Origin: Planctomycetota bacterium
GTDB taxonomy: Bacteria > Planctomycetota > Planctomycetia > Pirellulales > UBA1268
DNA length: 64,000 nt
Direction of reading: 5' to 3'
Assembly (NCBI GenBank): GCA_016872555.1
Contig: VGZO01000013.1
Coordinates: 1 to 64,000 of the forward strand
The notes under the pieces are model-generated. The model did not search any database. It was not told the origin of the DNA and saw only the letters and a list, made by a program, of their open reading frames with translations. Both the position numbers and the translations under genes were made by a program. This document shows, one piece after another, positions 38,010 through 41,505 of the stretch (position 1 is the stretch's first letter; the number at the start of each line of letters is the position of its first letter).

Positions 38010-39962
38010 TCAGCTCCGCGCCTGCCCGTGGAGGCTGGCCAGCATGCCGGGACGCGTGCAGAGATGCCGCTTGCCGCGCGACGAGCGGCTCGTCCAGAAC
38101 GTCTTGAGTGGCCCCCGGATCGCCTTCATCTGCCGGGCGAGGCGGTCGCGTGACGTGACCCGCTTGCCGATCGTGTAGCGGACGACGCCGTCCTGGTTGA
38201 TGACGATCGTGCACCCGCCGATCAGGTCGACCAGCCCGTCCACGGTCGTCGCGGTGCAGGATTGTGTCACCTCGGCGATCGTGTCGAAGAGGATCCTGCC
38301 GTCGGGGGCGACACGCCGGGCGATGCGGATCGAGTCGATGAGCGCCGGCGCGACCTGCGTGAAGCCCGTCGGCGGCTTGTCGTCGACGGGGAGGAGCATG
38401 AACAGGTGGGCCCGCTCCGGGGCCGTCACGAAACGCCCCAGCGCGTCGGCCTGCCGGGTGAGCTCGTTCTCGTCGGCGGGGCGACCGGGATCCCCGTCGA
38501 AACGCAGGTCGCCGAATGCCAGCCCCGGGACCTTCAAGCGCGTTTCGGGTGGCGCGTCCGGCGGCTGCCAGCGGAGCGCGTCTTCCGTCATGAACGGCAC
38601 GCCGGCTGGGAAGATCCGGCGGCGCCGAAAGGAACGCATCAAGGCCTCCCGGTAGCCCCACTTGTCGACCGGCTCGACCTCGAGGTCGGCCGTGACCAGG
38701 GCCCGGAGGTACTCCCCGAGCAGCATGTCCACCGGCGGGCAGTAGTCGATCGCCCGGATGCACATCGTGAGGAACTGCCCCGCCACGGCGCACGTCTCGC
38801 GGCCGATGGCCGCGAGGAGGGCGTCGGCGAGCGGCTTCGTGCCGAGGTCCTGCGGATCGACCCCGGCGATGGCCGTCAGCCGCGCCGTCTTCCTCCGGGC
38901 GATCGTCACGAACGCCTCGAATACGGCCGAGACGAGGACGGTTCCCAGGGCATGGGGCTCGACGGTCGGGTCGTAGCACACCGGCGCGCCGCGGCCGTCC
39001 GGTGGCTCGTCGGAGTCGAAGGCGTGGATCCCCTCGACGTCGATCCCCGAGCGCAGCGCCCGCCTGACCAGGACCGCGCCGTCATCGGCCGACCGCGCGT
39101 AGCCGAACTCGCGGGCGATGTCCGTGAGCAGCGATCCGTGCCCGACGACGCCGCGCGACCGACGCAGTGACTGCTCGACGACGCCTGGATAGGTGAAGTG
39201 GAGGAACAGGGCGACGAGGTCGGCGAAGCCTTCGTGGAACGCCAGGACGTCGGGATTGGTCGGCTCCTGGAAATTCGCACGGAGGCCGTCGAGGAGGGCA
39301 TGGGTCGTCTCGTGGGCGATGATGTCGTGCGACAGCACGGTGAACACCAATCCCCCGGGGATCGTGAAACCTGCCGGCCTCGCTCCCGCCCGGAACCAAC
39401 CGAAAGCCAGATCACCGGACTCACGGCTGTAGTGGGCGTTTTGCTCCTCGAACGCGAACGGACGGATCCGCAGCCGGACGGTGCGGTCGCGGTCGGTGGC
39501 GGTCGGCATGCCGGGCGGGATCGCCCAGGCGATGTCGCGTCCCAGGGCGCGGCGAAAGGCCGCGTAGGTGAGACTGCAGACGGCGTAGGCCATCTGCAGG
39601 TGGAACCGGGGATCGGACGGCGACGGGGGCACGCCATCGGTGACGAGCAGCTCCGGGTCGTCGAGGTCGAGCGGCTCGGTTACCGCGGCGAGCGGCTCCG
39701 GCGGCTGGCCGGCCACCACCTCGAACAGTTGCCCCTTCGGTCCCGGATCGAGCTCCTCCCACGGGACCTCGACCTTCGTCACCCCCCCCTCCCGATCCGA
39801 CACCGAGGGATCGAGGGTGTAGATCCAGAGCTGCCGGCCCACCGGCTTGCGCTGCTCCCGCCGCCAGCGATACGCCCGGGTCGAGGCCTGCCGGGTCACG
39901 CGTTCGCTGATCTGGTAGCGGACGGTCGACGCCCGCTTCCGCTCCCTCGACGCTTTCGCCAT
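38010..39962 (-). CDS. Thermolysin-like HExxH metallopeptidase, no signal peptide
   Basis: 650 residues. The zinc site is HETTH (H217, E218, H221), with the third ligand very likely E244 in LAFHEGFADLVALF, giving the HExxH-x(22)-E spacing of gluzincins. A region around residues 275-330 follows (GHGSLLTDIAREFGYA). The C-terminus is basic and Cys-poor. Despite the peptidase core, the N-terminus is strongly basic (KASRERKRAS) with no signal peptide or membrane helix, so the protein is cytoplasmic or leaves by a non-Sec route. The ATG at 39962 has GGGGAG about 9 bases upstream; a longer in-frame start lacks one. It begins 19 bp after the M43 protease gene, so the two form an operon. I do not recognise the family by name, and the substrate is unknown. 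Confidence 0.8.
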   Translation of the reverse strand: MAKASRERKRASTVRYQISERVTRQASTRAYRWRREQRKPVGRQLWIYTLDPSVSDREGGVTKVEVPWEELDPGPKGQLFEVVAGQPPEPLAAVTEPLDLDDPELLVTDGVPPSPSDPRFHLQMAYAVCSLTYAAFRRALGRDIAWAIPPGMPTATDRDRTVRLRIRPFAFEEQNAHYSRESGDLAFGWFRAGARPAGFTIPGGLVFTVLSHDIIAHETTHALLDGLRANFQEPTNPDVLAFHEGFADLVALFLHFTYPGVVEQSLRRSRGVVGHGSLLTDIAREFGYARSADDGAVLVRRALRSGIDVEGIHAFDSDEPPDGRGAPVCYDPTVEPHALGTVLVSAVFEAFVTIARRKTARLTAIAGVDPQDLGTKPLADALLAAIGRETCAVAGQFLTMCIRAIDYCPPVDMLLGEYLRALVTADLEVEPVDKWGYREALMRSFRRRRIFPAGVPFMTEDALRWQPPDAPPETRLKVPGLAFGDLRFDGDPGRPADENELTRQADALGRFVTAPERAHLFMLLPVDDKPPTGFTQVAPALIDSIRIARRVAPDGRILFDTIAEVTQSCTATTVDGLVDLIGGCTIVINQDGVVRYTIGKRVTSRDRLARQMKAIRGPLKTFWTSRSSRGKRHLCTRPGMLASLHGQARS

Positions 39963-39981
39963 CGCGCCGCTCCCCAAAGGC

Positions 39982-40914
39982 TCAGCGCTTGCGCCGGGCC
40001 GCGGCCGCCGTGGCCATCAGGCCCGGGCGCGCCGTCTCCAGCGCCGTCCGCATCCGCAGCACCTGCTGGGAAGTGAACATGAACATCGCCCGGTCGTCGA
40101 CATAGTCCATGTAGTTGACGAACATGTCGCCGGCCGGGCCGTTGTTGCAGGTCACCGACGGCCAGACCGGCGTACCGAAGTTGGGACCCTCGCAGTTCGG
40201 CGTGTCGGCGACCCCGTCGCCGCCGCTGCAATCGGGTGTGTCGCCCCAGATGTGGCGGAGATTGAGATAGTGCCCCACCTCGTGGGTCGCAGTGCGGCCG
40301 AGGTTGAACGGCGCCTGTGCCTTCCCGACGGTGCCGAACGCCGAGAAGTTGATCACGACGCCGTCGGTCGCCGGCGGGCCACCGGGAAACTGGGCGTAGC
40401 CCAGGACGCCGTCCCGCAGGGCGCAGACCCACAGGTTGAGTCGCGAGCGTGTGTCGATCGGCGCGATTCCTCCCGTCGCCGCGTTCTTCACGCCATCGTC
40501 GGTACCGAAGCCGCGGACGGTGGTCGGCGTGCGCGTCACCTCGACCAGACGGAAGGAAATCCGGGCGTCGGTGACCAGGCCTGCCCACGGGGCGGGCACC
40601 TTGGAGCGATCGGTGTTGGTGGCCCGGAAATCACGGTTGAGCACGTCGAGTTGGCTGGCGATCTGGTCATCGCCGACGTTCCCGGCGTCGGTCGCGTAGA
40701 CGACGTGGACGACGGTGTCGACCGTGACGATCGGCATCTGGGCCAGGTCGACGGGGGCCTGGCGCTGCTTGGCGGTCGCCCCCTCGAGTTTCATGAGATT
40801 CATGCGGAACGCAGGGTATTTTTCCAGCAGCATCATGTGGGCCGCCATCGCCCCACAGACACGCCGCGGCACCCGCCCGCGCGCCATTCCGGTCTTTTTC
40901 GTGCGCTTCGCCAT
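39982..40914 (-). CDS. M43 (pappalysin-like) zinc metalloprotease
   Basis: 310 residues. The metzincin zinc motif HExxHxxxxxH is complete (H211, E212, H215, H221 in HEVGHYLNLRHIWGD), and the Met-turn VNYMDYVDD follows about 50 residues later. The spacing and the Cys-containing inserts (TPDCSGGDGVADTPNCEGP) are those of the M43 pappalysin/cytophagalysin family. As in its operon partner, the N-terminus is basic (MAKRTKKTGMARGRVPRR) with no signal peptide, which is unusual because characterised M43 enzymes are secreted. The Shine-Dalgarno AAAGGAAGG precedes the ATG at 40914. The promoter-proximal side carries a structured leader with a terminator (41056-41251), so expression may be controlled by attenuation. 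Confidence 0.88.
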   Translation of the reverse strand: MAKRTKKTGMARGRVPRRVCGAMAAHMMLLEKYPAFRMNLMKLEGATAKQRQAPVDLAQMPIVTVDTVVHVVYATDAGNVGDDQIASQLDVLNRDFRATNTDRSKVPAPWAGLVTDARISFRLVEVTRTPTTVRGFGTDDGVKNAATGGIAPIDTRSRLNLWVCALRDGVLGYAQFPGGPPATDGVVINFSAFGTVGKAQAPFNLGRTATHEVGHYLNLRHIWGDTPDCSGGDGVADTPNCEGPNFGTPVWPSVTCNNGPAGDMFVNYMDYVDDRAMFMFTSQQVLRMRTALETARPGLMATAAAARRKR

Positions 40915-41055: not shown

Positions 41056-41094
41056 AAAAAAACCACCGGCCCCCGGGGATCTCCCGGAGGCCGG
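41056..41094 (-). terminator. Strong intrinsic terminator or attenuator upstream of the M43 protease gene
   Basis: On the - strand the sequence CCGGCCTCCGGG, a short AGAT loop and the complementary CCCCGGGGGCCGG arm form a GC-rich stem (41094 to 41066), followed by TGG and a run of seven T (41062-41056). It ends 142 bp before the protease start, in a position where it would stop transcripts coming from the leader. Confidence 0.8.
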
Positions 41095-41198
41095 CAGCCG
41101 TGGGACCGGCACGCCACGCGTGCGAAGCGGCGGCAATCACCGCTCGGCCACGCACCGTGCATTGGGCTGCGTCAACGGCGAGCCCGTCGACTGGCCGC

Positions 41199-41251
41199 TT
41201 ACCGGCGCAGCCCCTTAGTACAGTCACATTGCGTCACTGAATCACCTCCTT
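41199..41251 (-). promoter_or_regulatory. Leader with perfect Shine-Dalgarno and 12-codon ORF
   Basis: AAGGAGGTGAT (41251-41241) is an uninterrupted complement of the 16S rRNA 3' end. With seven bases' spacing after GGAGG, a GTG at 41237 opens a 12-codon frame, MTQCDCTKGLRR, closed by TAA at 41201-41199. About 100 nt later comes the terminator at 41056-41094. This is the layout of a leader peptide with attenuator, or of a very small protein gene. The two Cys codons flanking Asp are notable, but no codon run typical of amino-acid attenuation is present. No promoter was identified. Confidence 0.45.
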
Positions 41252-41505
41252 CTGCTACGAGGACCCCAGCCGTCGCGGCCTCTGCACTGGCCGCCGCCGG
41301 GCGATTCACCCCCCGGCCGTCACCGGGGACGCTTCATCCGCCGTCTCCCCCGGCGGACCGGAAGCCGACGGAAAGACGGGCCGGAAAGGAGTGCGGCTTG
41401 CCGCCGCACAGACCCTTCCGACCTTCCACACTGTAGCCCCAAACGCACCAACTGGACAGCTTTCGTCTCGGCTGCCCCGATCGTGATTGCCACCCCGGCG
41501 CCGGC

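Follow-up and report, generated by a model that had tools for sequence, protein, structure and literature searches.

A conserved structured RNA with a short open reading frame in Planctomycetota appears to be a gene of its own

On the minus strand of the window (the whole 64,000-nucleotide stretch of contig VGZO01000013.1 analysed here), a strong Shine-Dalgarno (SD) sequence, a 12-codon open reading frame (micro-ORF) and a terminator precede a gene for an M43 metalloprotease. This arrangement raises the question of whether the locus is a leader-peptide attenuator of the protease operon, the gene of a very small protein, or an RNA that stands for itself, as a sequence-only reading had variously proposed. 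All particulars of that reading, namely the SD AAGGAGGTGAT, the GTG start, the 12-codon frame, about 100 nt between the TAA of the micro-ORF and the terminator, and a terminator with seven T, are borne out on the minus strand. Its interval, 41056-41251, has the correct terminator end at 41056 but is too short, as the conserved unit spans about 41330-41056 and its 5′ limit lies ~80 bases beyond the earlier one. Within the unit, the elements are ordered as hairpin H1, hairpin H2, SD, ORF, three-way junction and terminator:

41430-41459, minus strand: weak sigma70-like promoter candidate (CTGTCC at 41459-41454, an 18-base spacer, TACAGT at 41435-41430)
41379-41423, minus strand: extra 5′ hairpin before the conserved core, a predicted fold; G001 is the sole relative in which the full query, this part included, aligned
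41310-41329, minus strand: hairpin H1; 8 of 8 pairs changed on both sides among 37 distinct sequences
41265-41301, minus strand: hairpin H2 with an internal loop; 11 of 12 pairs (two helices) changed on both sides
41251-41241, minus strand: SD AAGGAGGTGAT, read off the sequence; complementary to the 3′ end of the genome's own 16S rRNA (GGATCACCTCCTTTCT)
41237-41199, minus strand: micro-ORF MTQCDCTKGLRR, 12 codons and a stop; start, spacing and stop kept in the family, frame kept class-wide
41164-41214, minus strand: three-way junction with outer helix GGGCTGC/GCAGCCC; 13 of 16 pairs changed on both sides
41099-41056, minus strand: Rho-independent terminator; its helix is paired in 99.6% of alignment cells in 25 sequences
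39982-40914, minus strand: M43 metalloprotease gene (Pfam PF05572), a neighbour outside the RNA unit

The distribution of the element

The GTG start codon occupies 41237-41235 and the TAA stop codon 41201-41199, and judged by eye on the alignment the first hairpin of the junction carries the stop codon in its loop. The terminator stem (41099-41061) has 17 pairs, is GC-rich and runs into the seven T that end at 41056; the M43 gene starts at 40914, 141 bases past it. A 655-codon ORF beyond the M43 gene (38010-39977, minus strand) contains HETTH, a zinc-protease-like motif, and a Pfam search with this ORF gave no match.

The SD stands out in its genome. The exact sequence AAGGAGGTGAT occurs once in the 64-kb window, and sites with at most one mismatch number four versus 0.22 expected; the 13-base SD match AAGGAGGTGATTC has a single occurrence in the 4.47 Mb assembly. 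The SD is fully complementary to the end of the genome's 16S rRNA (GGCTGGATCACCTCCTTTCT), and if one G-U pair is admitted the complementarity extends, by eye, through CA to the first G of the start codon. Most copies of the element likewise pair with the 16S tail beyond a usual SD (R-T-Y after GGTG, G-U allowed), with exceptions that include L095, L103-L106, L110 and L112. An upstream UUCCU, seen by eye in some copies, would allow sequestration of the SD; it is absent in L008, L009 and L011, and the idea was dropped uncounted.

Conservation in relatives had been named beforehand as the test of the locus, and SD, frame and terminator all proved to be conserved. With a 411-base query, the element is found in 27 of 35 same-family relatives at E ≤2e-14; a further weak match, in G030 (L029), is not the element on reading. 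A covariance model built from 25 family copies (R1) detects it in 54 of 66 family genomes including the window's own, within a sample of 296 genomes from the order, misses being counted from a kinship-sorted listing. Twelve other genomes of the order gave weak matches, with SD, start and short ORF present in 9 and not in 3; the matches at L092, L101 and L102 were read and rejected. A second covariance model (R2) was built from eight sequences of the weakly matching genomes. Across the phylum, R2 matches 60 of 392 genomes (E ≤0.01) and R1 matches 42 of 392 (E ≤0.001), giving 92 of 392 in union. When 20 of the 21 weakest R2 matches were fetched, 19 had an SD, a start codon and a short ORF, which puts false matches at about 1 in 20 at that level; the match at L311 is not the element on reading. 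These counts are perhaps also too low because the large scans used stricter filters. A simple sequence pattern recovered SD and ORF in 15 of 19 copies, missing L318, L323, L330 and L333, and in another set of 30 it missed L117 and L132, both of which were recovered in later analysis.

Nearly all matching genomes have a single copy; two full-length copies are present in G016 (contigs C34 and C91) and in G020 (C14 and C22). A scan of the window with Rfam 15 gave no match at threshold, and in the literature searched, as far as titles and abstract openings go, no planctomycete RNA of this kind was seen. The element thus adds to the known repertoire a conserved RNA gene without an Rfam 15 match at threshold.

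Fold, reading frame and genomic neighbourhood

The fold, as judged from alignments of relatives, is real. None of 100 shuffles folds as well as the stretch 41430-41055 (z -5.09). The covariation check that had been suggested for related genomes came out clearly: in the R1 alignment of 37 distinct sequences, 33 of 39 pairs show changes on both sides and 96.0% of cells are paired, versus at most 44.1% for slid structures, and 0 of 500 shuffles reach any of five measures. In the R2 alignment, 14 of 19 pairs in three helices changed on both sides. Both alignments were fitted to their models and hence lean towards them. For the same helices plus the terminator, a MAFFT alignment of 25 family copies gave 7 pairs versus 3.4 in shuffles, a value reached by 4 of 500. 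The three-way junction is nearly invariant within the family and is uninformative for covariation there. Two further readings of the structure were discarded. A start-codon hairpin (GUC with GAC), which by eye had seemed to covary, is paired in 59.7% of cells versus 60.6% in shuffles, with a covariation of 0.175 versus 0.203 (32 sequences), and a tRNA-like reading of GCAGCCC-ACCA fails as ACCA is absent in L001-L005 and others.

The reading frame is tied to this structure. In 31 of 32 class-wide copies the start is in phase with the junction, at distances of 24, 27, 30, 33 or 42 nt, the sole out-of-phase copy being L127 at 19 nt. Starts are GTG in 25, TTG in 6 and ATG in 1 of these copies, and stops are TAA in 12, TGA in 10 and TAG in 10. 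TGG at the stop position would be expected three times if bases were independent and was seen 0 times (P 0.010); as the sequences are related, such probabilities overstate independence. At codon 19 of the Rhodobacterales-like ORFs described below, which is always a stop (30 distinct ORFs; TAG 18, TGA 7, TAA 5), TGG was expected 4.2 times and again seen 0 times (P 0.0004).

The peptide itself is held much more loosely. Class-wide copies share a resemblance of roughly M-E/D-S/Y-x-C-S/T-S-Q-R-G-G-x-A. For pairs with at most 8 differences, the 25 distinct ORFs of the family give a pN/pS of 0.66 and the 23 from the rest of the phylum one of 0.42; across the planctomycete comparisons the ratio ranges over 0.42-0.74 versus 0.66-1.43 for the other frames, and the reading frame is lowest in 4 of 4. 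Myxococcota gave 0.48-0.73 (only 11 ORFs). In Alphaproteobacteria the range is 0.76-0.94 and the reading frame is lowest of the three in 0 of 4 comparisons; among the Rhodobacterales-like ORFs, the two codons before the stop vary and pN/pS is 0.76-0.88, not the lowest of the three frames. The sequence GAGGTGG near the ORF end is read as (R)-G-G in planctomycetes versus E-V in Myxococcota, and base pairing constrains the 3′ half of the ORF. Constraint on the peptide thus seems to be present but weak, and base pairing may supply part of it; those Alphaproteobacteria, too, appear to keep the open frame and hardly the peptide. The Cys-Asp-Cys motif of the window's peptide had been tentatively linked to metal or redox sensing, an idea that loses its footing within the family, where the first Cys is replaced by G, S, D, T or V, or its codon is missing. 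The ORFs of family f25 (L303, L305 and L315) encode MTNCDCTKGLHA, MKYDCTKGLRN and MTNCDCMRGLHA, and resemble the window's MTQCDCTKGLRR more than do the ORFs of other families in the window's own order; L304, also of f25, is identical in sequence to L145 (Phycisphaeraceae).

To compare neighbours, 5-13 kb around the copies of 29 relatives and around the window's copy were examined using mechanically called ORFs and BLAST. Neighbouring ORFs are common only to closely related groups and differ between genera (30 loci). The M43 gene and the 655-codon ORF adjoin the element in the window and in G001, which makes 2 of the 30 loci. Contig ends truncate several of the loci, but those of G002 and G003, of the same genus, reach at least 3 kb downstream. 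In L048, L050 and L051, a tRNA gene in the opposite orientation lies within ~300 bases downstream. The proposal that the RNA controls the two-protease operon is not sustained by this distribution, and the alternative of a short independent RNA fits it, given a conserved element with its own terminator among exchangeable neighbours.

Promoter and terminator predictions agree with such a unit. The best promoter-like site has its -10 element 14-15 bases before the H1 edge in 13 of 30 family loci. The window is not among these, and its own candidate agrees with the consensus at 7 of 12 positions and has its end 100 bases upstream of H1. Promoter-like scores average 7.40 of 12 in the family versus 5.66 in shuffles (30 loci), and 8.06 versus 6.61 class-wide (32 copies); among the 28 class-wide copies scoring ≥8, the -10 ends 6-14 bases before H1 in 21. 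By itself, one terminator-like site in 2 kb does not exceed chance (1.1 expected); the window's terminator is credible because it is conserved in relatives. Its 5′ arm (GGCTGCC) is nearly invariant across genera despite different downstream genes.

In 24 of 25 family copies, the terminator's 5′ arm (GGCTGC) is a possible pairing partner for the 3′ strand of the junction (GCAGCC); outside the family, such pairing was not seen by eye in L103 and L111. This pairing would be the logic of attenuation, yet no constant gene lies downstream. The sequence comparisons predict a discrete, terminated transcript, and the locus appears to be a stand-alone RNA gene, common in the phylum, rather than a protease leader.

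Similar RNAs outside the phylum

When about 85,000 genomes were scanned for AAAGGAGGTGATCCAGTG, at least 117 stretches were returned, versus an estimated ~7 expected at equal base frequencies, SD-like words being commoner than that. Among the matches listed, an ORF of at most 26 codons follows in 78 of 80 stretches, and the hosts, going by record titles, are mostly Alphaproteobacteria; four Phycisphaerae-type genomes, one Planctomycetaceae, two Myxococcota-type genomes and one Krumholzibacteriia bin are also among them. The looser pattern AAAGGAGGTGRTYNNGTG has one site in each of 7 whole genomes, which had been picked because they carry the longer motif, and 0 with the reversed control. It occurs in 29 of 289 genomes of one alphaproteobacterial genome's class versus 2 with the reversed control, and in 14 of 111 genomes of one myxobacterial genome's phylum versus 1. 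Of these pattern loci, 33 were read, and five have longer ORFs that are perhaps ordinary genes (L262, L268, L269, L287 and L288). In some Alphaproteobacteria (L161, L268 and L269), the same strong SD precedes an ORF of 54-57 codons with a signal-peptide-like start.

The alphaproteobacterial loci lead to a known RNA. The Rfam family CC2171 (RF01867), a Caulobacter sRNA, resembles the planctomycete element in that its RNA gene contains AAAGGAGGTGATCCAGTG and a short ORF and has a complex fold with a hairpin at its end; it differs in that its model begins ~ten bases before the SD and so has no H1/H2 domain, and in having another fold and another peptide. Its gathering threshold of 75 bits was reached by 4 of 18 loci scanned. 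The window scores 19.3 bits, below that gathering score, and the best planctomycete copy scanned is L300 (37.2); L097 scores 31.6 and L127 28.5. Four of nine SD-pattern controls without a clear element also match CC2171 (30.8 bits for L191, and 25.9, 23.1 and 22.2); L191, whose ORF has 24 codons, is perhaps a member itself, and without it the highest control is 25.9. Sub-threshold copies above the 30.8-bit control are L163 (43.2), L300 and, narrowly, L097. Most cross-matches with CC2171 therefore say little beyond the shared SD, and the homology that the first E-values had suggested was undone by these controls.

The second known RNA is the actinobacterial Ms_IGR-5 (RF02471), whose consensus has GGAAGGAGGUGGUC and UGUGAGGUGG before UAG, and which differs, on our own reading of the consensus, in a longer gap from the SD to the likely UUG start. 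The Myxococcota copy L289 scores 35.7 bits against it, below the gathering threshold of 45, and none of the nine SD-pattern controls matches. One of 95 Myxococcota genomes matched, below the cut-off, the genome of L289 lying outside these 95; the window stretch and 28 planctomycete loci gave no match at the E-value limits used. As stated in the parts of the sources consulted, Ms_IGR-5 has significant ribosomal reads in M. abscessus and M. smegmatis, where noncoding RNAs often carry ribosome footprints and coding is difficult to judge (PMC4974804); it is listed as validated by RNA-seq in S. lividans (PMC8079986) and is an expressed small RNA in two Streptomyces (PMC8079986, PMC8780764).

A similar architecture is thus found in Alphaproteobacteria (CC2171), Myxococcota, a Krumholzibacteriia bin and perhaps Actinobacteria (Ms_IGR-5). 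That the planctomycete RNA, CC2171 and Ms_IGR-5 descend from one family, a proposition compatible with the other readings, is conceivable at somewhat less than even odds. In its favour, CC2171-bearing Alphaproteobacteria and Myxococcota show the same architecture, L300 scores 37.2 bits against CC2171 and L289 35.7 against Ms_IGR-5, and R2 gives 25.6 bits for L150 of the Krumholzibacteriia bin, 21.8 for the Myxococcota locus L289 and 21.3 for the Myxococcota locus L279, above the 14.2 of the best SD-pattern control. However, R2 reaches at most 12.5 on 15 alphaproteobacterial loci, the window scores below the CC2171-matching controls with L097 hardly above them, and Ms_IGR-5 is met in just one Myxococcota genome of the 95, sub-cut-off.

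In Rhodobacterales-like loci such as L134 and L176, the CC2171-like RNA has a Vut_1-family transporter gene on one side and, on the other, an RF-1 domain gene that we take to be ArfB-like. Among the matches listed, the Vut_1-family gene is clustered in 28 of 80 loci and the RF-1 domain gene in 26 of 80. A link of the CC2171-like RNA to ribosome rescue is possible, or this may be mere gene order.

Readings of the conserved frame

Comparison between genomes establishes a predicted terminator of the unit's own, a conserved fold and a strong SD at a fixed distance from the start, together with a frame and a stop that are kept, neighbours that can be exchanged and, at the 5′ edge in many relatives, a promoter-like site. 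The account that we prefer, with a probability of about 0.5, is a stand-alone, normally single-copy structured RNA gene of ~220-370 nt, whose micro-ORF would be meant for translation and in which ribosome loading and termination would act as the switch. That start, frame and stop are under selection and the peptide hardly is points to the translation event as what counts; our best reading is that the conserved event would be the loading and termination of a ribosome on what is probably a regulatory RNA. The SD would capture a ribosome, which would read 10-18 codons and terminate at a stop codon placed within one of the junction's hairpins. With the stop codon there, a translating ribosome would have to open the three-way junction, and the RNA would accordingly have a ribosome-free and a ribosome-occupied fold. 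The cell would use the difference between the folds, most likely by switching the activity or lifetime of a trans-acting regulatory RNA; the signal would be the capacity to start translation, and the act of translation would outweigh the peptide. The RNA may be a new kind of ribosome-responsive RNA, and if the ribosome is the signal, it would embody the logic of a leader peptide detached from any downstream gene.

Three rivals have to be set against this reading, the first two of them still live. If the locus were instead a microprotein gene, the 10-18 residue peptide would be the product and the RNA structure would control only its synthesis. The peptide resemblance among class-wide copies, length changes that stay in frame and the lowest pN/pS in the planctomycete reading frame, which makes peptide constraint possible, speak for it, but pN/pS is still 0.42-0.74 in planctomycetes and 0.76-0.94 in Alphaproteobacteria, the Rhodobacterales-like stop is kept while the codons before it vary, GAGGTGG is read as different residues in planctomycetes and Myxococcota, and base pairing constrains the 3′ half of the ORF; we consider a microprotein unlikely. 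Rather unlikely, too, is a decoy whose extended SD would bind 30S subunits or mop up small RNAs with anti-SD seeds. The 16S-tail pairing that exceeds a usual SD in most copies and the single AAAGGAGGTGRTYNNGTG site per genome, in 7 genomes chosen for the longer motif, would suit it, and a sponge for anti-SD small RNAs is known in Caulobacter: CrfA acts on four small RNAs with an anti-SD motif, as far as the consulted part of the paper goes (PMC12559287). A decoy, however, has no need of the start codon, fixed spacing, open frame and stop that are kept. CrfA was set aside as a candidate for the same RNA, this part of the paper giving no link to CC2171 (PMC12559287).

The idea that the element regulates the M43 protease operon in cis, as a leader-peptide attenuator or otherwise, is largely refuted and very improbable. 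The order of SD, short ORF, structure, terminator and gene is that of an attenuator, a short ORF with a good SD does precede the terminator, and the alternative GCAGCC/GGCTGC pairing is available in nearly all family copies. Nevertheless, the M43 gene is beside the element in only 2 loci, no downstream gene in the same orientation is conserved among the varying neighbours, and three loci have opposite tRNA genes there.

Beyond this locus, the findings point to a wider pattern, in which a stand-alone RNA carries a genome-unique 13-base SD match and a micro-ORF that is itself better kept than the peptide it encodes. A bolder version of the preferred reading, which we put forward tentatively and would sooner bet against, is that stand-alone RNAs gated by the ribosome form an ancient class, as a rule with one gene per genome, that spans Planctomycetota, Myxococcota, Krumholzibacteriota, Alphaproteobacteria and Actinobacteria. 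In such RNAs, a near-perfect complement of the 16S tail would capture a ribosome on a disposable frame of ~10-25 codons, and a stop inside the fold would flip the RNA between two trans-acting states, reporting the capacity for translation start.

Two known systems invite comparison. According to the consulted part of its source, rnTrpL of Sinorhizobium meliloti is a small RNA with a translated 14-residue ORF (PMC10117765). This dual-function sRNA is like the planctomycete RNA in being a small RNA that carries a small ORF; it is, however, leaderless and the attenuator RNA of trpE, whereas the planctomycete RNA has an SD and is followed by no constant gene. tmRNA, too, is an RNA with an internal short ORF, as is the planctomycete element, and translation of its tag does not start from an SD. 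The window has no match to RF00023 (tmRNA) at gathering, and the genome's own tmRNA lies on another contig, C85.
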